A stretch of 64,000 nucleotides of DNA, taken from contig NW_012236526.1 of NCBI RefSeq assembly GCF_000787575.1, positions 992,001 to 1,056,000 of the forward strand, in the 5' to 3' direction. Both the position numbers and the translations under genes were made by a program. The notes below the pieces were generated by a model. The model was given only the letters and a program-made list of their open reading frames with translations, did no database searches and was not told where the DNA came from. Source of the DNA: Acytostelium subglobosum LB1. Its lineage: Eukaryota; Evosea; Eumycetozoa; Acytosteliales; Acytosteliaceae. Shown in pieces: positions 15,645 through 27,415 of the stretch. The first letter of the stretch is position 1. Each line of letters starts with the position of its first letter.

Positions 15645-18600
15645 ATGGTTATAGTTAGTTTGGAAATAAAGAACTTCAAATCATACAAGGGATTGCATTT
15701 GGTTGGTCCATTCAAACAGTTCTCTTGTATTATAGGTCCCAATGGCAGTGGCAAGTCCAATCTGATGGAGGCCATCATCTTTGTACTCGGTTACAAATCA
15801 TCACAGATAAGAGGCAACAATCTAAATGAACTCGTATTCAAACAGATCGTTACAAACAGTGTCGCTGAAGCATTGGCAGAAGCTAGTTTATCAGAGTGTG
15901 TCGCTGAAGCATTGGCACAAGATGGTTCACCAGATTGTAAGTCCAACTCATTCATTCATTCAATCAATCAATCAATCAAAGAACTAACTCAATCACACCA
16001 ATAGCATCTCCACAACAACATGTGGAGAAGATGGAGTCATTCGTAAAGATGCATTATCATCATAAACCAACAGGCAAAGACTATGTGTTTATGAGAAAGA
16101 TTGAGTCAAAGGAGAAGGACTCAACATCGCATTACTACGTGGACGATAAACATTTGAAATATGAAGAGTACGAGTCAAAGTTGGCCGAGCTGGACGTGCA
16201 CGTGGCCTGCAAGAACTTCTTTGTGTTCCAGGGCGATGTGATCAGTCTGGCATCGCAGAACCCCAAGCAGATCACGGCGCTGGTAGAGACCGTGTCAGGT
16301 TCGGGCGCGCTCAAGTCCGAGTACGACCGTCTGTTCCAAGAGAAGACGGCAGCTGAGGACGCCGTCATGCTGACCTACTCCAAGAAGAAGGCGATCAGTC
16401 AGGAGAAGCAACAGATCAACGCACAGCTGGCAGAGGCACGAGAGTTTAGAGAGTACATGTCAAAGCGCGAGGACCTGCGCGTCAAGTCTATCCTGCTGAC
16501 GCTGCGGTATCGCCTGGGCCAGATCACGCAGCTCTCTGACCAGCTGGGCTCCAAAGAGGTGGAGCTGACCACGCTGCGCAGGGAGGGCGAGCGCTTTGAA
16601 AACGAACAGAAGGCCTCCAGCAAGAAACAGGCCGAGACACACAAGGAGCTGCTGAAGCTCGAGGACGAGATGGACTTGCTGAAGAGGTCGCGCGACAAGG
16701 GCCGTCCCAGCGCTCTCAAGGCCAGTGAGGAAGTCAAGCAGCTCAACGACAAGATCAACAAGACGACACACTTTATCGAGCGCGCCGAGAAGAACTTTGC
16801 CGCGCAGCAAGCGACCATCGAGCAGCTGCGCAAAGACCTGGCGGATCTTGAGCGCCAACAGACAGACGTGGAGAGCGCCGAGGTGGAGAAGTCGATCGAG
16901 CTGGACAAGGACCAGATCGAGCAGTACAACAAGATCAAGCTACAGGCCGGCAAGGAGACAGCCGATATGCGACGCCAACTTGACCAGCTTACGCGCCAAC
17001 AGAACGTCGAGACCGAGTCGCTGATGACCCTGTCCTCCAAACTGGAGGACCTCAAGAAGATGCGCGTGCAGTTTGAGCAGACCAACGAGAAGCTCATCCA
17101 GAAGAGAGACATCGCCGAGCAGCACGTCAAGGAGGCTGACGAGCGTCTGGTCGTGTTGCGCGACGCACTCAATCAAATGACCACCTCAAACGCACAGATG
17201 TTGTCCAAGCAGAGTACACTCACCAGCGAGCTGGACCGCATCCAGTTCATTCTTTCCGAGCACAAGACCGAGCAGACCGAGAAGGAGAGGGACCGTCGTC
17301 TCAACTCTGTGATCAGCACGCTAAAGAACCTATATCCAGATGTGCGTGGCAAGGTGTCTGACATGTGTGAGCAGACCCAGCGCAAGTACTCGACGGCGTT
17401 GGCCGTCGCCATGGGCAAGCTGCAGGACGCCATCATTGTGGACACTCAAAAGACGGCCTACGCCTGCGTTGAGTACATGAAGGAGCAACTGTACGGCACG
17501 GCCACCTTCCTCCCACTCGACCGTCTGAACCCCAAGGCACTGAATCCCAAGCTGCGCACACTGGGCGGAACGTCCAAGTTGTTGATCGATTGCCTCAAGT
17601 TTGACAAGGTTATCGAGCCCGCGATCAGATACGTCGTTGGCAACACCTTGGTCTGCGACTCGTTGCCCGAGGCCAAGAAGCTGGCATTTGGCGACGCCAA
17701 CAATCGCCAAAAGGTCGTCACAATCCAGGGCATCAAAATCACCAAGACCGGTCTGATGAGTGGTGGACTGATGGGCGTCAAGTCCAAGACCAAGTTTGAC
17801 GCGAGCCGACTCGACGACCTCAAGAAGCAGCGCGACGCCATTATCCAGGAGCTGTCGGGAATGGAGGCCAAGCAGGTGAGCATGTCGGACATCCAACAAA
17901 TGAACAACCAGATCAATGAGCTGAGGCTCTCGGCCAGCACCAACAGCATCACACTGGTGCCCATCCGCGATCGTATCGCCAAGAACACCGCCGAGGTTGC
18001 GTTGATCGACAAGGAGCAGGCGCCCATCACGCCAGAGATCCAACGCATCACAGAGTCGATCGCCGAGCGTCGAGTCACAATCGATTCGCTGCAGAATGAC
18101 ATTAGCGCCGTGGAGGAGGACATGTTCCAGGAGTTTAGTCAATCACTGGGCATCAAGAGCATTAGAGAGTTTGAAGAGGATCGACTCAAGAAGATACAAC
18201 AGCAGTCAAGCGAGAGGATGGCACTGTCCCACAAGATTGACAGAGTCAGGAATCAGATGGAGTACGAGAGTAGCAGGAACCTGGAGAGTGAGATCAACAC
18301 ACTTCGATCAGAGTTGGAGGCCAATCAAGAGGCACTAGATAGAGAAGTTGGCTTGCAAAAGGGATGCGTTGAGCAAGACAATGAGATTGAACAAAAGTTG
18401 GAGGATGTTGGTGACAAGATAAAGAGTAAGTAAGAACTGTTGATTAAGTGCACGATGGAATACTAATCAATCATTCAATCATGATTAGAGCACAAAGAGA
18501 CATTGTTCACAATGAACACGGCGATTAAAGATGCCAAGAAGAAGGTGTCGGAGAATGGATTCAAGAGAGCACAAATGGAGAATCAGATATTGATTGGATT

Positions 18601-19960
18601 GAATGATTTGGCAAAGATCAAGAAGGACTTCCACAACACATTGTTGGAGGCAAAGACTGAGAACATGAGGATACCACTTAGAGGTGAGGACGAGGAGATG
18701 GCAGAGCCAGAGGAGTCGGAGAAGGGCGTGCCTGGTTCACAAAAGAAGACACCATCTTCTGGAAAGACTGGCAAGAGGACTGGTGGCAAGGATGAGAGGA
18801 AGAAGAAGTCGTCGTCATCGAGAAAAAGGAAGACCAGGGACGAAGGCGACAAGTCTGCTGGTGAAGGCGAGGGAGAGGAAGAGAGCGAGGCAGGCAAGAC
18901 AGACGACGACATCTTTCACGACTCGGACGAAGAGGAGCTTGACTCGGACGAAGAGAAGGACGAGGCTGAGGAGGAAAACCCATTCCTGGACTTGGTAGAG
19001 ATGGCCAGCGAAGAGATGACCGAAGCTGAGCTGGACGCGCTCTACGAAGCTCACATCAGCATTCCCTTTGACTTTAAGCTCATTGCAGCCGTGTCGGTCA
19101 CGTCGGAGGACAGACTGCAGCACCAGCTGAAGGAGTACTCACACGACCTGCACAAGATCAAGACCGCCATGGAGACGTACAACCCCAACCTCAAGGCCTA
19201 CGAGCACTTCCGAACAATCTCAACCAAGCTGCGAGAGACCATCAAGGAGCTGGACGAGCGACGAAACGCCGCCCGTGAGGTGGGCCAGAAGTTTGCCCAA
19301 GTGAGGAAGGAGAGGACGCACCTCTTCAACCGCGCCTTTGATAGCATATCAAAGAAGATCAACAAGATCTACGGTGACCTGACACGCGATCTCTATCCCC
19401 CCTACCTGCGAGGCTCGGCCGATCTGGCCGTCGAGGACACGTCCTACCCATTCAACGGAGGCATCAAGTACACGGCCATCCCTCCCAACAAGCGTTTCCA
19501 AGAGATGGAGATGTTGTCTGGAGGCGAGAAGTCGATCGCCGCGCTGGCACTCCTCTTTGCCGTTCATCAGTACAAGCCAACGCCATTCTTTGTGCTGGAC
19601 GAGGTGGACGCAGCGTTTGACAACATCAACGTGCTCAAACTGGTGCGCTACGTACGAAGCAAGGCCGCCAAGAAGAAGACGCAGTTTGTCGTCATCTCGC
19701 TCAAGGAGATCTTCTTCCAGAACAGTGACGCTCTGGTTGGTGTGTGTCGCGAGCTCGACTCAACGTCCAAGGTGCTCACCTGTAGTCTGGAGCATCTGCC
19801 CATCAAGGAAGTGGAGCTACTGTCACTGGACGAACAGAGGAAGGTGGACAAGCGTGTCCTCTCTGTCAGGAAGCAGAGGCGTGAGGGTATGATTCCAGAG
19901 TACAACCTGACCAGTGCCACTGAGACCAGTGCCAGCGAGAGCGAGGTGAACACCGACTAG
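15645..19960 (+). CDS. smc1: Cohesin subunit SMC1
   Basis: ATPase core subunit of cohesin; with SMC3 it forms the ring that holds sister chromatids. Exons 15645-15936, 16005-18425, 18489-19960 give 1394 aa. Walker [10 protein letters not shown] (residues ~31-39), first coiled coil, hinge (~535-680, with [13 protein letters not shown] and [13 protein letters not shown]), second coiled coil, ABC signature [15 protein letters not shown] (~1247) and Walker [13 protein letters not shown] (~1272). [20 protein letters not shown] is typical of SMC1. Two oddities: a 13-residue unit (VAEALA...) repeated in tandem after ELVF in the N-terminal head, where SMC1 has a loop, and a ~100-residue Lys/Glu/Asp/Ser-rich insertion (~970-1068) in the second coiled coil. 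Length exceeds the usual ~1230 aa mainly because of these. Confidence 0.96.
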
Positions 19961-20111
19961 TAGTAGTAGTACCCAAGGACAGTCCGCAATGCCAGTCCAA
20001 GTCAAAGACTTAAATCTCACACATAGGTACATCTGTATCATTATCATTATTATCTCTTGCCTACTTGGCAGTGTTTGTTCAGGGTAGGGTAAGGATAAGG
20101 GTACACGTTTA

Positions 20112-21409
20112 TTATACAAAGTTGACATAGTTGGCTGGATAGGCGAGCATGTAGTTGTTGTCGTTGCTGGCAGTCAATCTCATGTATCCATTCTCTCCCC
20201 AGCTTGCACCCCAGGAGTCTAAAGATTGATTGAGTGATCAGATGTTAGTATTAAGGTTATTGGATGAATGAATGAATGAATGATTAACATACTCTTAAGG
20301 ATCCAGTAGTCATAGGTTGGATTGTATCCAGTGAGGATCATGGCATGGTTGACACTGGTGTACGAGGTTGGGCTGCTGTAGATACCAGAGACATAGTTGA
20401 TGAAGTTTTGATCAGCATAGAGACCGATGGAGATTGGTCCATTCTTGAGTCCATCAATGAATGCTTGCTTGGTCTGAGTGAAGATCTGATTGTATCCCTT
20501 GAACTTCAATCTTGGAGTGGATGCACTGGATGAGGCACATGATCCTTGGACGGCAGTGTACGGGTTCTGAGCAGTGAAAGAGATACCATTGGTGGCATAC
20601 TGGTCATAGACCTGGGTTGGCCATCCTCCATTGCATCCATTGGACATACAGTTGAGAGCATCCTGTTCAGAGAGGTTGATGCTGTTTGGATTGCCTCCGT
20701 AGGTCACAAGGAACTTGGACTCAATGTTACCAATGGCAGCAAAGATGTAGCAATCTCCACAATTACCCTGGTTCTTTGGTGCAGTTGACCAGGGTCTCCA
20801 ATCAATAGATGAGTTGGTAGTTGGTACCTTGGCGGCTGGGAATGGATTTGATGGAGCAGGGGTGGTAGTTGGTGCGGGAGTAGTAGTAGGGGCTGGGGTA
20901 GTGGTTGGGGCAGGGGTAGGGGCTACATATGGAGTGTATGGATTTGTGTTGGCAAAGCCACCTCCAGTGTAGTAGCGGCAGTAGACATAGTAGTATGATC
21001 CACACTTGCGCATGCCACATCCAACAGAGGTAGTTGACTGCCACACTCCATATCTTGCCAAACATGGGCTGGTTGTGCAGGTCTTGGTGTTGAAGTTCCA
21101 GTTGCCATTGGTGCCCCAGATGTAGTTCATCAAGTTCTGGGGGTTGAATGAGGTCATAGAGAGCTTCCATCCTGCAGAGCCTGAGAAGGTGCCCCACGAT
21201 CCATCGCATAGATCAAGGGTACTCTGGACTTGGGCGGCCAAGGTATAATTCCAAACTAACGACTTGAGTGATGTGGATGGAGTGGGTACAGGCTTTGATC
21301 TCCATGAGTTATGATTATTAATAAAAGTAGCAATATCAGTTTGGTTCAATTGACCATTTGTAAATGTAATTATACAAGTACATAAAAATATTAATATTAA
21401 TGATTTCAT
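20112..21409 (-). CDS. Secreted CAP-domain/papain-like cysteine protease fusion
   Basis: Two exons, 20293-21409 and 20112-20218, give 407 aa. Order: signal peptide (1-~19, MKSLILIFLCTCIITFTNG), CAP/SCP (PR-1-like) domain (~25-155: INNHNSWR, LVWNYTLAAQVQ, GVWQSTTSVGCGMRKCG, VYCRYYTGGGF), a Pro/Thr linker with APTTTP repeats (~165-190), then a C1A papain-like domain. Catalytic residues look intact: oxyanion Gln and Cys in NQGNCGDCYIF, His in VNHAMILTGYN, Asn in KNSWGASWGENGY (restored by splicing). There is no I29 inhibitor propeptide; the CAP domain sits in its place. The usual CGSCW is CGDCY. Likely secreted or lysosomal proteolysis; the role of the CAP part is unknown. Confidence 0.9.
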
Positions 21410-22279
21410 TTTTTTTAAATTGATTGAATGGTGTTTTAAAAGTACAATAATAAATTAAATAATAATATAGGTGATTAAGGATATATATATATTATACAAA
21501 TAATTATACAATGATTATTAATTAAATAACGAATGAAGGGCAAAATTGGAGTCTATTTATCGCAAATTGATTGAAAGAACAGTAATACTTTAATATTTTT
21601 AAATTCGATCTTGAATCAAAACCCAACCTCAATCCAAAAGTTATGGGGTATTATTGTCATTAACAATAATAAAGGTAGTTAATGAAGGATACATGCTACT
21701 ACACATGTAATACAAGATCAAGTCGGTTGGAGTTTACCTCCAAAACCATTGCAAGACCAAAAAAGTGTGTTGTTGGGTAGTTTTGTAGGTTTTTTCATAG
21801 TTTTGTCATAAGATGTGGGGTCTAACGCGGGTCCAAGGACCTGTTTTGATTGGACAAAGTCCCATCATCTGCCTTTTGGTTACCAATTATACTCTGAACT
21901 GCCTCGGGTCTAAAGGTATCGAAGCATTGGTATGGTGTCGACGGATGTTGATTCAAATAACAATCAAACAATCAAACACAAGTTGCGCACTGTTCCTTCC
22001 ACACTCAATCAATCAATTAAACATGTTTGAGTGAATAAGTGACCCCTCAAGCACAGTTGTACAGTGCCAGTCAGCCAGGTGGTGGCTTGATGAATGGAAG
22101 TATGTCGCCAACTATGACAGAGACGGACAGTAATGTAGCAGTTTACACTTTAGAACTCTAATTGTTCTCTTAACAATCATTGTTTGGATGGGACTTTGGA
22201 ACTCATTTTATTGTTTCATTCGAATGAATGAATGAATAATATTGAGAGTGGACGATGGACGGACGGACGACGGATGGAC
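21410..22279. other. Intergenic region upstream of the fusion protease
   Basis: 870 bp without a supported gene. The part next to the protease start is very AT-rich (TATATATATATTATAC at ~21483) and is probably its promoter. A 73-codon frame at 21813-22034 has no recognisable features. Confidence 0.4.
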
Positions 22280-22948
22280 TTACAACTCGCGGTTCAAGTA
22301 GTAGTTCATGTGAGTGCGGACACCAGTGTACTCACGGTTGTGGATTGGGTGCTCACATGGTGGTGGCAGGTTGAAGACGTTGCTGTCGATGGTGGTCGAG
22401 AAGTCAAAGATGGAGGTGTGGGCCTCGCCGAGGGTGTAGTCGACGTTGGACAGTCTCTGGTTGATTGGAATGCAGGTCGATTGCTCAAAGGCACCAAAGT
22501 AGGAGTGGACTCCGTCAAAGAATGGCGAGGTGTATGAGTTGTACTTCTGCGAGCCGATGGTGACTTGGTTGGAGAACTTGGTGTTGGGTGGCACCATGGT
22601 GTTGGGGATTGGGAAGTAGGCCGAGAACAGGAAGCAGACGCCGTTGGTGATCAGGTAGTTGGTGTTGTTGTTGCCAAAGTGCACCTCCATTCCCTCCTCA
22701 AAGATGGGCATGTTGTCGGTGTTGTTGAACTGGATGCGGTAGAAGACGGCGGAGCGCTGGTTGACAAAGTCGTTGACGACACCTCCACTCTCGGCGAATG
22801 ACTCCAAGTGGTTGTGACGGCCAACAAAGTTGAAGGCAACGGTGTTGTAACCGTATCCGTAGGTGTTGTTGTAGGTGGCACAGATTGGGTTCTGGGCAGA
22901 AGCCAAAGCGGCGAACAAGAAGAGACAAGCAATAGTGTATCTGAACAT
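22280..22948 (-). CDS. Secreted ependymin-related protein
   Basis: Intronless, 222 aa. Signal peptide at 1-18 (MFRYTIACLFLFAALASA). The rest resembles the ependymin-related (EPDR/MERP) fold, a lolT-like lipid-binding beta sandwich: YNTVAFNFVGRHNH, YRIQFNN, a cysteine at NGVCFLF, VPPNTKFSNQVTIGSQ, YFGAFEQSTCIPI and SIFDFSTTIDSNVFNLPPPC, which line up by eye with the family's PQNSTFEDQYSIG, GIYTVKDCYPV and DPSVFTPPSTC regions, including two of the conserved cysteines. Several N-x-S/T sites support secretion. Function in dictyostelids unknown; may be a lysosomal or extracellular ligand-binding protein. C-ending codons suggest high expression. Family assignment is from memory of motifs, not a search. 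Confidence 0.72.
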   Translation of the reverse strand: MFRYTIACLFLFAALASAQNPICATYNNTYGYGYNTVAFNFVGRHNHLESFAESGGVVNDFVNQRSAVFYRIQFNNTDNMPIFEEGMEVHFGNNNTNYLITNGVCFLFSAYFPIPNTMVPPNTKFSNQVTIGSQKYNSYTSPFFDGVHSYFGAFEQSTCIPINQRLSNVDYTLGEAHTSIFDFSTTIDSNVFNLPPPCEHPIHNREYTGVRTHMNYYLNREL

Positions 22949-23567
22949 GTTTGATTATTTGTTTGAATGAGGTTGATTGATTGATTGAATGATTGATCAA
23001 TTACTTAATCATCATCATCCTTCCAATGGAAGGTCACGAGTCTCCATTGTACGGCGGTCAATCAGTCGGGATGTGGAGTGGCCCTCCGGTGTATGTTGTT
23101 GTAGGGATGTACAGGATCTACCCTACAACAACATGGTCTCCAGGAGTGAGTGTGGTGGGAAGAGGTCACCTTTGGTTCATTGACAACTGGACGAGGCAGG
23201 CAGGCAGTCAGACAACAGGCAAGGCATTAGCAGGCAAGCCAGGGTTCCCAGCTAGGGAAGTTTGAATGAATGAATGGACAGGGGGCATCACCATCATCAT
23301 CAATTCATTCATTAGTTGTACAAGGAATGAATGACCGACCACTAATTAAACTGGATATTTCTGGATATCGGGCGCCCAGGAATGTATGATTGAGTGGGTG
23401 TGTGAGTGATTGATGGATGTGGAAGGTTGGTTTTTGATGGGCGGGGTCATCATTGTTACCCATTATGATGATGATGTCTCTCTCCTGGCTTGTATCTTAA
23501 AGCTGGCGACTACAATATAAACGACGAAGGGGTGTGATTCGGGTCACGCCTAACTCGACTCAAACAA
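22949..23567. other. Intergenic region with a strong hairpin
   Basis: Holds the EPDR-like promoter side (CAATCAATC on the minus strand at 22970-23000), a 14-bp perfect inverted repeat at 23093-23134, and CAGGCA-type repeats at ~23196-23240. No protein-coding exon recognised. Confidence 0.4.
23093..23134. repeat. 14-bp perfect inverted repeat (hairpin)
   Basis: ATGTTGTTGTAGGG at 23093-23106 and its exact complement CCCTACAACAACAT at 23121-23134, separated by 14 bases. In RNA this would be a stable stem-loop. It lies upstream of the EPDR-like gene and downstream of the DUF4209 gene. Could be a terminator-like or small-RNA structure; nothing identifies it. Confidence 0.85.
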
Positions 23568-26201
23568 TCAGACCTGTACCATATGTCGCATCAAAGATGA
23601 CAGCTGGGATGCACCTATCGCTGTGATGTTCTCCGACATCAACTCCCATGCACTGTTCTTCATCTTAATGGACAGCTTCTCCATTTGGCTCATCAACTTG
23701 TCATTGTACGACCCAATCGTCTTGGGCTGCTTCTGATCAACATGTATATCCATGTTATCGGTGGTGCTGGGAGCAGGACGAACAATCTGTACCACTAGGA
23801 GCCATTGGACTATACGTGAGAATCTGGCAAAGCCATTGGCTAGGCCCCACCACTTGTAGAATGAGTTCTGCACTCGTTTGCTCTTGATTTGATTGACAAT
23901 GACTTCGTTGTACAACTGTTGTCCGCATTGCTGAAACTCTGCCACCAACTTGATGCATGTCGAAGCCGTCTTCCTGATCGACTCATAGTAGCTCACTTCC
24001 AATGCACTTGGATTACAAACTGTGATGGTCGCCTCTGTCATTGTTGTTGAACTCTTTAACTCTTTGTACATGTTGGTCATGAGTGAATCGAGAGAGAACT
24101 GACTGTTTGACATCACGTATTCATAGAGTCGCTCATTCTCTGTGGCTGGACAGTCAATGATGGCTGGCTCCACTGCTTTGGCCTTCAGCTCGCCAAGGTA
24201 TTGTCTAAGCGCACTGGTCGTACGATCCAATTGTACCAACTTCTCATGTGCCATTGCCTTTGGATGGAAAAGTACCTTGTACTCATTGTTGACCATTGGG
24301 ATGATGGTAGGATCTAGGTTCAAAGTGGCCAGTTGTTTAGCTGGAATTGACTTAACAAGCAAGGTCACGGCAGTTTGAAAGAGTTGATCGAGGATGAATG
24401 ATGGTATATGTTTGTTATCAATCTCTCCATGTGATATCCTATCTCGAATGCGTGGACCATCTGGATAAAGGAACAGGTCGAGAAGTCCAAGTATATTGCT
24501 CTGGCCAACACTATCGATCAGTTGATTTCGGAACTCAATCACAGACTCTTCCAACTCCTCGGACTCCTCGGACTCCTCTGTCTCCACATCTTGACTCTGT
24601 CCAAGTTTGGAATACTTTGGATCATGATATTTGTAGTACTTCTTGAGCGCTGGTGATGATGAGCCTTGTGTTGAGGCTACACTGGTGGTCGTGAGGCAGA
24701 TCTGAAGTTGTTGATGCTGTGACGATTGGCTGAGTGCCAGACGATCAGTGAGGAATAGGTCCAGCGTGGTGTAGTAGCTTAGATAATCGGCGTGGAGGAA
24801 GCGAGGCGACAGTCCATTGATCTTTACAAACTGACATCGTAAAGAATGCTCCAACTGTGGTAACAGGATAATGAATGTAAAGTAGTCGAGGTGAGTTTGA
24901 GTTTGTGATTGGTCTGTCTCCACGAGTGATTGATTGTAGAGTTGAAGAGCGTGATGCCAAAGATGTTGTCGACCCGACACAACAAAGGGCGAGCAGTCAA
25001 TCAGACGACCAATGTCATGTAGTTGTTTGGGTGTGAGCTTGACGCGTGTCTGTTGTGACTGGGCCATTGCCTGGTCACGATCTTGTTGCACACGAATCAG
25101 TTTAGGTAGTTGACTGAGATCCAACTGCTTCTTGGGAATGAGTGCTTGTGGCTGTGGATGCCATGTCTGTACTTGAATGATCATTGAGTGGAGGATGACG
25201 AGCATGAGGATGACCATTGAGAGGTCGAGTTCGCCAGGCGAGATGAATCCATGCCAGAGCACATTGCGTAAGTTCATTCCTATTGGTGGACCAATGATCA
25301 CTCGCAATGTCCACAGCAATTCTGGACCAATACTTCTCTGCAACACAGGGTCTTCAAGGATATCGCGTAACATTCTTCCCATTGGTATGACAGGAGGTGT
25401 TGTTGGCTTTGATGTAGTTGTTGTTGATGATGTATTGCTGTTGTTGCGGTACTCAAACAGTATCCTCCATGTGATTATGTCGCCCAACAGTCTCTCGATT
25501 GTCAATGTCAAGATTGAAGCGCAAAGTATGAGGTCAGTGTCATTGACCTGAGTACCAATCATCATTGTAGTCAATCTCTGAGAGACATCAGCCATCAAGT
25601 TAAGCTATATTATGTTGTTGATTGGAGTTAGTAGGTGGCCGGTCAACCGTGGCATTCATTCACTCAACCATCTTAAAGTACTTACATCATTCAAGAGGGT
25701 ACATTGACTTGCTCGCCACATTGCCGGACTGAATGGAAGTTTATCCCGCCACGAACATTGTGTCTCCACCTTTGACATTGATTGCTCTCTCACTAAAGAC
25801 TTGAGTAATGTGTTGGCCATTGTACGAATGGAGAGTGATGCGGCTGCATATTTCAATGCAATATCATTGTTCAATTCAACTGTTGTTGTTGTAGTCTGTT
25901 GTTGTGACTGACCCTGAGCTTGGGACTGTGTAGATGTTGGTAGTCCCATTGCAATCAGATCCTTTAGTATTGTTGCAAGAGTATGTTGGTTTAAACACAT
26001 TGATGATGGATCGATTATATGATCGACAGACGTGTCTACATCTGTCATTGTGATTGGTGACAATAACAATCCTTTAACATTCTTTGATAAGTATGATTCT
26101 ACTATGACGGCGGATTCTGTTGTGTCACTACTACCATCACCATGAGTTATGATATCATCTTTTGAGGGAAGAAGATGTATTGTACCATTAGCTTCTGTCA
26201 T
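23568..26201 (-). CDS. DUF4209 protein, ERMARD-like
   Basis: Large protein of ~850 aa from two minus-strand exons, 25686-26201 and 23568-25604. A DUF4209-type core is suggested by ERLLGDIITWRILFEY, GPELLWTLRVIIGPPIGMNLRNVLWHGFISPGE (read as two pieces) and the following hydrophobic segment MVILMLVILHSMI; the LRNxLWHGF box is the hallmark of that domain in ERMARD, an ER-membrane-associated protein linked to RNA degradation and neuronal migration in animals. The first ~120 residues are Thr/Ser/Gln-rich. The C-terminal half is helical without known motifs. The reading frame remains open to an upstream ATG at 26288, but that stretch looks like leader. Assignment moderate; biochemical role unknown. 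Confidence 0.7.
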
Positions 26202-26323
26202 AGTTGGTTTGGTTAAGTTAACTATGTAAATATATAGTGCTGGAGCAGGAATAGAATGAACCGTAGTCACCTCTGACCACGAATACATCCAAGTGACAGA
26301 CCAAGGAAAAAATAAGGAAGTTC

Positions 26324-26363
26324 AAGGGCAAGGGTAAGGGTAAGGGTAAGGGTAGGGTAAGGG
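26324..26363. repeat. Telomere-like TAAGGG tract
   Basis: Runs as AAGGGCAAGGGTAAGGGTAA then GGGTAAGGGTAGGGTAAGGG: about six TAAGGG-type units with single variants, placed between the DUF4209 start and the TLC-domain gene end. A shorter related tract (AGGGTAGGGTAAGGATAAGG) is at ~20083-20102. Confidence 0.85.
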
Positions 26364-26420
26364 ATATGTACAAATCACTGATCAACAGACTGACATGGTT
26401 TCGGAATGTCAGTCAATCAA

Positions 26421-27415
26421 TCAATCATGTTTTATTGAAATACCAGATGTTCTCGAGGATGAAGAGCTGGATGAAGATGATGAAGTCGAAGATGGTCGAC
26501 GACCAAAACGTTGAAGTACTTTGGTCATTATCAAACCTCCCCAATAGAGGTTCATCAATGATGTTGCCATGGTCTCACCTATCAACACCATGTTCTTGTC
26601 CATTGGGTATGAGTCCAGTGTTGGATAGATATAGATGAGCATGTTCAATGTAGTGTACACTCCCCATATACAACGAACCAAAATAAATGACACTGCAAAT
26701 GACAACAATGTCCATTCATAGAACTTGGACTTTGGATTGACAACCTGTAGGAATCCCTTAATATTCAGCGGTATCGTACTAAGTTCATACAGGAACAACT
26801 TGGCGGTGAAGCATGCATATAATGGTCCACCATGAAGTAACTAAAATGTATGACGATATGAGTTTGTGATCATGAGTGATCTAGAGTGATCGTGAGTGTC
26901 AACTTACATTGACATATTGTGTTGCCAATACTCCACAACAAGCATGGAATACCATTACTCTTCCAACAAGGTCTGGTGCACTCAATCCAACTTTGAGATC
27001 CCAAAGGAAGTATCCACCTGATATGATAAACTGGTAATATATCAAATCACTATAGTAATATACTGGGTCTTGCTGTTTAAGATGATATATATAGTCAGTA
27101 CTAAGTTTGATTGATTGAGGTTAGAAAACATACACCAACAGAGTCATAGTTTATCTTCATTGATATTGGTACTGCGATGAGGGCGTGAACTAGTGAGACA
27201 GTCAACTGATCCCAGTTTGAACGACCCTTGGCATCCAATGCAATATATTGTCTCTCAACTCCAAAGTACCTTGCAAAGTATTGTGATCTCCTCTCAATGT
27301 ACATAAATACCATTGAGAATACAATGCTAGATACAACATAGTTCATATTAACATTCTCCAAATATCCTCCTTCTACTGTTCCACCTCCATTATTATTATA
27401 TGAGTTATATGACAT
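26421..27415 (-). CDS. TLC-domain membrane protein (TLCD4/TMEM56-like)
   Basis: Three minus-strand exons, 27134-27415, 26908-27072 and 26421-26840, all phase 0, give 288 aa. Multi-pass protein with about six hydrophobic segments: NMNYVVSSIVFSMVFMYIE, a second after SNWDQLTVSLVHALIAVPIS, the SDLIYQFIISGGYFLWDL segment (typical TLC signature region), VFHACCGVLATQYV, LSFAVSFILVRCIWGVY and ATSLMNLYWGGLIMTKVL. The late Arg in the FILVRCIWG segment and the HGGPLYA motif fit TRAM-LAG1-CLN8 family members of the TMEM56 type rather than ceramide synthases, which carry a double His. Ends in a Ser-rich tail. Probably ER or Golgi; TLC proteins act in lipid sensing or transport. Confidence 0.8.

Follow-up and report, generated by a model that had tools for sequence, protein, structure and literature searches.

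Secreted CAP-papain proteases of Acytostelium subglobosum and their paired membrane-anchored I29 proteins: a probable split zymogen

Introduction

Papain-like enzymes generally depend on an I29 propeptide for folding and latency. The I29 domain sits on the propeptide-binding loop of the enzyme and the stretch that follows its GNFD motif, which together with ERFNIN is a motif of the I29 inhibitor family, runs backwards through the cleft. A gene of Acytostelium subglobosum LB1 raises the question of what becomes of this propeptide when another domain occupies its place. The gene lies in a stretch of 64,000 nucleotides (contig NW_012236526.1, positions 992,001 to 1,056,000; hereafter the window), and a sequence-only reading had described its product as a secreted protein in which a CAP domain and a linker precede a papain domain with intact catalytic residues, proposing that it would be a new zymogen design if the CAP part did the job of the propeptide in folding or inhibition, or directed the enzyme to sterols or cell walls. 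The genome searched for relatives of this protein comprised 30.7 Mb in 56 contigs of this one species; the contig of the window is named C50 below, and the other members of the families described are likewise named after their contigs.

Results

Structure and domain content of the window gene

The gene lies exactly at 20112..21409 on the reverse strand and, in the spliced model, its two exons encode a product of 407 amino acids (Table 1). Exon 1 carries the signal peptide, the CAP domain, the APTTTP linker and the papain domain as far as ...DYWILK, while exon 2, which follows an intron called from sequence alone, restores K-N-S-W-G and ends with the stop codon TAA. The Pfam models that the sequence-only reading had put forward for a domain search were CAP (PF00188), Peptidase_C1 (PF00112) and I29 (PF08246). 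The first two matched above their cut-offs of 21.1 and 20.7 bits, respectively, and the third gave no match in cis at a max_evalue of 10, which leaves the CAP domain at the usual I29 position, as had been claimed. The secreted CAP-linker-papain order was likewise confirmed, and the catalytic residues said to be intact are Gln214, Cys220, His355 and Asn373. In a phmmer search of the PDB the CAP part matched yeast Pry1 (E 1.1e-7) and the papain part matched ananain (E 1.1e-35) and papain (E 3.7e-32). Similarly, Foldseek with an AlphaFold2 model of exon 1 retrieved PR-1, Pry1 and SmVAL4 (best E 6.4e-7), the CAP part being only moderately modelled. This model was built from a seven-sequence input and lacks exon 2; its mean pLDDT is 46.5, with CAP blocks at 48-78 and a poor papain part. 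The possibility that two genes had been wrongly joined was rejected, the CAP and papain parts lying in one open exon in the window gene, in its paralogues C33 and C56 and in the single-exon paralogue C45. The fusion is not a chance product, because eight paralogues share its domain order.

Table 1. Features of the CAP-papain locus (positions in the window; I29-TM, membrane-anchored stand-alone I29 protein, described in the text)
Feature	Position	Strand	Basis
CAP-papain fusion gene, 407 aa	exon 1 21409-20293, exon 2 20218-20112	(-)	Spliced model, Pfam, paralogue search
N-terminal hydrophobic signal peptide, ~residues 1-19	21353..21409	(-)	Kyte-Doolittle 19-mers at 1-19 and 3-21; signal end is an estimate
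CAP domain, residues 31-146	20972..21319	(-)	Pfam PF00188, 31.1 bits; PDB phmmer; Foldseek
Pro/Thr-rich linker (APTTTP repeats), residues 163-200	20810..20923	(-)	Translation read directly
Papain-like peptidase domain from residue 200, intron-split	20112..20812	(-)	Pfam PF00112, 162.1 bits, residues 200-398; phmmer to ananain/papain
Catalytic Gln214 codon	20770-20768	(-)	Alignment and spliced model
Catalytic Cys220 codon	20750..20752	(-)	Alignment and spliced model
Catalytic His355 codon	20347-20345	(-)	Alignment and spliced model
Catalytic Asn373 codon, split by intron	20293 plus 20218-20217	(-)	Alignment and spliced model
74-base GT-AG intron, directly before NSW	20219..20292	(-)	Sequence; position same in paralogues C33 and C56
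Upstream region without I29-TM gene	21410..22279		Divergent I29-TM gene here in eight paralogues; tblastn, best E 0.28 elsewhere
Amoebozoan ependymin gene, next upstream of the protease	22948-22280	(-)	Pfam PF25544

Metal tetrad of the CAP domain

In the phmmer alignment, read by eye, the Pry1 tetrad residues His208, Glu215, Glu233 and His250 (numbering of PMC4921858) face Thr, Trp, Thr and Leu, respectively, and 0/4 tetrad residues are therefore kept in the window protein. The sole His of its CAP part, His33, belongs to an HNSWR motif and is not a tetrad residue. The lack of a metal-site His, already noticed in the sequence-only reading, thus proves right and goes further, all four tetrad residues being gone relative to Pry1. 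A tetrad His is absent at either position from all nine CAP-papain paralogues, and the GE-type Glu is kept in seven of them but not in the window protein. SmVAL4, as described in PMC4921858, is also without the tetrad, yet binds sterol and counts as a CAP protein; the suggested targeting to sterols or cell walls may accordingly hold even with the tetrad gone.

A family of nine CAP-papain genes

Genome searches gave 37 exon matches for Peptidase_C1, 18 for CAP and 39 for the window protein itself. Eight paralogues with the same domain order emerged, on C33, C56, C43 (C43a at ~702 kb and C43b at ~717 kb), C26, C54, C45 and C52, and the papain domains of the family are 30-55% identical to that of the window protein. 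All nine spliced models exceed both Pfam cut-offs, and an I29 match is listed for 0/9 proteins (max_evalue 10 for four, 1 for five). The splice models were drawn by eye, and that of the C43b protease is uncertain at its first intron; nine is a lower bound for the CAP-papain genes as well as for the I29-TM genes described below. The catalytic Gln and Cys are kept in seven of the nine enzymes; in the C45 and C52 proteases the Cys is replaced by Ser and the Gln is lost, while the His and Asn are kept. The linker between the CAP and papain domains measures 32-101 residues and is a low-complexity Pro/Thr/Ser sequence in 7/9.

Membrane-anchored stand-alone I29 proteins

The I29 profile matched the genome at 17 places, of which 12 lie beside papain matches and represent ordinary I29-papain genes (the cis genes) and five are stand-alone. 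Four of these five stand directly upstream of CAP-papain genes in divergent orientation. A tblastn search added the genes next to C26 and C54, and inspection of the flanks those next to C45 and C52, bringing the number to nine. The encoded proteins, here termed I29-TM, consist of an N-terminal hydrophobic signal, an I29-type domain, a transmembrane (TM) helix and a cytosolic tail; the hydropathy analysis gave a TM segment in 9/9, and in one protein, that of C43a, the N-terminal segment does not reach the threshold applied. When the genome was searched with the I29-TM proteins of C55 and C52, no additional I29-TM gene came to light; the first of these searches missed C43a, so that nine is a minimum. 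Two weak matches on C47 were rejected as I29-TM genes, being unrelated surface proteins with only the TM helix in common. The genes at C47:242487-243299 and C47:244525-245400 (-) are related neighbours, surface-like, with a C-terminal TM helix that resembles that of I29-TM proteins, to which they are otherwise unrelated.

Once spliced, seven of the nine I29-TM proteins exceed the Pfam I29 cut-off (29.8-46.0 bits against 24.4), although three of the seven models were still C-terminally incomplete when scored and were completed later. The match covers profile positions 1-59 in six proteins and only 1-39 in C55. The same seven, referred to as classic, match a profile of 11 cis I29 domains in hhalign (E 1.2e-16). 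The partners of C45 and C52 have no Pfam I29 match and no match to the profile of 11 cis I29 domains (probability 0.3%), but profile comparison aligns them with the other seven from NxFSD through the TM helix (probability 94.7%, E 5.6e-8). The C52 partner was modelled with AlphaFold2 at a mean pLDDT of 48.1, too poor for use. The nine TM I29 domains are split from 11 cis I29 domains by one branch (97/95). Similarly, the nine CAP-papain domains are split from 11 cis papain domains by one branch (98/98) in a papain tree of 22 rows, whose cis set holds 11 of the 12 I29-bearing genes, the twelfth (C14) being left out.

Identity to the C55 protein ranges from 19 to 46% among the I29-TM proteins, which share the order N/G-x-F/Y-S-D, then F, then Gly some residues later. 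NxFSD is found in 6/7 classic members, GEFSD in C55 and NxYSD in C45 and C52. On direct reading, all seven classic members have Trp or Tyr for the Phe of ERFNIN, and at least three of them lack its Arg. An insert of ~35 residues lies between the I29 helix and NxFSD in the I29-TM proteins of C33, C55, C56, C26, C54 and C43b; it displays a loose common R.L ... YP/FP pattern and was not seen in 11/12 cis I29 domains read. Near the C-terminus, the cytosolic tail of six of the nine proteins contains the motif [GL]I[DN][VI][FY].[FM] followed by SITAR, and this common motif suggests a role in sorting or signalling. A search with the C33 tail matched only C33, C56 and C55, and gave no wider tail family.

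Head-to-head pairing of the two families

Eight of the nine CAP-papain genes have an I29-TM gene head-to-head, with gaps between the start codons of 291, 479, 624, 805, 811, 942, 1122 and 1186 bp, and for each of the eight pairs open models of both genes can be built. Under random placement, with the largest gap of these same data, 1186 bp, set as the limit, the chance of at least 8/9 pairs is ~7e-30; calculated by gene order it is 2e-24, assuming 11,000 genes, which is our own figure. Two of the pairs, at C43:699870-703145 and C43:716185-718764, are mirrored and lie 13 kb apart.

Distances between the papain domains and distances between the I29-TM proteins correlate over the eight pairs (r 0.92, permutation p 5e-5, the minimum for 20,000 permutations), and do so without C45 and C52 (r 0.80, p 0.0014). 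The correlation shows joint descent and not binding, because linked genes duplicate together. The pairs of C45 and C52 each combine a Cys-to-Ser protease with a partner that has diverged past Pfam's I29 model.

The distance from the I29 domain to the papain match is 26-32 aa in 8/12 cis genes, those with both parts in one exon, and that from the I29 domain to the TM helix is 23-35 aa in all nine I29-TM proteins. The TM helix thus occupies the place where the protease would start, and on the other protein the CAP domain and linker occupy the place of I29. Such matched spacing would be expected if the protein had been divided cleanly between propeptide and enzyme.

A candidate partner of the window gene on C55

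The window gene is the one family member without a linked partner. No credible I29-TM gene or remnant was found by tblastn in the whole 64-kb window, either with all nine I29-TM proteins (best E 0.28) or in an earlier search with five (0.72). Its downstream neighbour is a convergent SMC gene, the 841 bases upstream of it are single-copy but for one 62-base match elsewhere, and no tRNA lies within 17000-27000 of the window. With neither an I29-TM remnant nor a tRNA nor a repeat at the site, nothing found accounts for the lost link with C55.

The sole unpaired I29-TM gene found is located at C55:1557386-1558130. The members of C33 and C56 are the nearest by identity both to the window protease, in its papain part as in its CAP part, and to the C55 I29-TM protein, and the identity profiles of these two over the eight pairs agree closely (Spearman 0.95). 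In the papain tree of 22 rows, C50 falls together with C33 and C56 (95/93). Trees of nine rows are less decisive: that of the papain domains leaves the fork of C50 without resolution, that of the I29 domains sets C55, C33 and C56, without resolved order, next to four others that form a group (80/94), and in that of the CAP domains C33 falls outside the group of C50 (90/92). The C55 I29-TM protein is likely to be the partner of the window protease, now unlinked by rearrangement, and C50-C55 is the single case free of the joint-duplication objection. Divergent from the orphan I29-TM gene is C55:1554701-1555933 (-), which encodes a secreted protein without a Pfam match and has relatives at three further places in the genome.

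Discussion

A proposed propeptide acting in trans

Nine genes of each architecture were found, eight of each in head-to-head pairs, with correlated distances and matched spacing. On comparison of these sequences we consider it reasonably probable that the two families form a split zymogen, in which a CAP-papain enzyme is served by a dedicated membrane-bound I29 acting in trans. An ancestral I29-papain protease would have been divided into two proteins. The first would be the secreted CAP-linker-papain enzyme without a propeptide, represented by the window gene and its eight paralogues; the second would span the membrane as a type I protein, its ectodomain being of the I29 type, its TM helix lying at about the point where the mature enzyme would begin, and its tail facing the cytosol. 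Within the ER, the I29 of this membrane protein would engage in trans the papain domain that matches it, in the manner of a cis propeptide, and would aid its folding and hold it inactive. The TM helix and tail would carry or retain the protease at the membrane until it is released, probably by cleavage or at acid pH. The CAP domain would be an added module, probably binding a target (lipid, wall or surface) and not acting as an inhibitor. Most likely, then, the propeptide has not been replaced but moved to a second, membrane-bound protein.

Of the proposal made in the sequence-only reading, the new zymogen design is thus likely to stand, whereas the assignment of the propeptide's job to the CAP domain is not supported. 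That the CAP domain is itself the propeptide, covering the active site or aiding folding, would agree with its holding the propeptide's place and with the failure to find I29 in cis, but seems quite improbable: the variation of the linker over 32-101 residues, mostly as low-complexity Pro/Thr/Ser sequence, gives no hint of a lid fixed over the active site, and a separate I29-type set is genetically paired with the CAP-papain genes.

The pairing itself could be read in two other ways. The I29-TM proteins may be general membrane inhibitors of ordinary cathepsins, with the pairing due to a shared promoter or shared expression and the CAP-papains needing no propeptide. Divergent genes are often co-expressed. 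A stand-alone I29 protein, CTLA-2alpha, inhibits cathepsin L (PMC4089206). We nevertheless regard this explanation as unlikely, since nine of each gene were found, the unlinked C50 and C55 genes have matching identity profiles, and the Cys-less C45 and C52 proteases have partners beyond Pfam recognition, which suggests coevolution. Alternatively, the fusion may be no more than a known domain shuffle, the CAP:C1A order in slime moulds being already published (PMC10084794), and the head-to-head arrangement an accident of family duplication with no joint function, in which case a block-duplicated pair would retain its order without selection. Against this rather improbable account, both genes are open in all eight pairs and their linkage has outlived a divergence to 30-55% identity in the papain domains and 19-46% in the I29-TM proteins.

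If the split zymogen is real, a gene-matched, separate and membrane-anchored propeptide would be a new mode of protease control. Such pairs would offer a system, testable in laboratory dictyostelids, for propeptide folding in trans, for pair specificity after duplication and for the change from inhibitor to receptor. A more speculative extension, which we think doubtful, is that the nine CAP-papains and nine I29-TM proteins are matched ligand-receptor pairs, the propeptide having turned into a dedicated receptor, with the tail motif conserved in six of nine, and binding having outlived catalysis; in two pairs the catalytic Cys of the protease is gone and the membrane partner is still present. 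Ligand-receptor pairs of this kind, if they exist, could direct proteases to phagosomes or serve in signalling from cell to cell.

Relation to known systems

Procathepsin L-type I29-papains and the 12 cis genes of this genome have the same two domains and, in the 8/12 measured, similar spacing after I29. In contrast, the domains described here are carried by two polypeptides, with the TM helix replacing the protease on one and the CAP domain replacing I29 on the other. The Pseudomonas protein Lif is a membrane-anchored steric chaperone encoded beside its secreted lipase. The I29-TM proteins are likewise membrane-anchored and, in eight of nine cases, encoded beside the gene of their putative enzyme, but Lif is bacterial and the proteins are unrelated. 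CTLA-2, crammer and BCPI are small soluble proteins without a membrane anchor. As here, the I29-like domain of CTLA-2alpha, crammer and BCPI is encoded apart from the protease (PMC4089206, PMC3551606); the I29-TM proteins differ from these in having a TM helix and a cytosolic tail and in being paired, gene by gene, with a family of proteases. Literature searches found nothing on membrane-anchored I29 in amoebae or on such paired genes among the matches listed, the subscription literature lying mostly outside their coverage, and gave no match for I29 with Dictyostelium cysteine proteases or for Acytostelium cathepsins.

The CAP:C1A fusion is of a known kind, and the new part is the split, paired zymogen. 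One sentence in PMC10084794 records the CAP:C1A order in slime moulds, naming proteins of Dictyostelium purpureum, Polysphondylium pallidum and Planoprotostelium fungivorum, with the same order as here and a predicted extracellular location. The account of CAP:C1A in that source, in the parts available, has nothing on I29, a propeptide, a zymogen or adjoining inhibitor genes, and mentions a prodomain only for another protease family. The C1A:CAP proteases of Aphanomyces euteiches described there also unite papain and CAP in one secreted protein, but their order is reversed, with CAP at the C-terminus.

Other genes seen

The ordinary I29-papain gene at C52:665370-665990 has Ser in place of the active-site Cys (CAASYAYA) and is pseudoprotease-like. 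Three CAP genes, at C42:683889, C51:318445 and C41:468232, are without a papain domain in the stretch read; the proteins they encode are Ser/Thr-rich with a hydrophobic C-terminus and are perhaps GPI-anchored.
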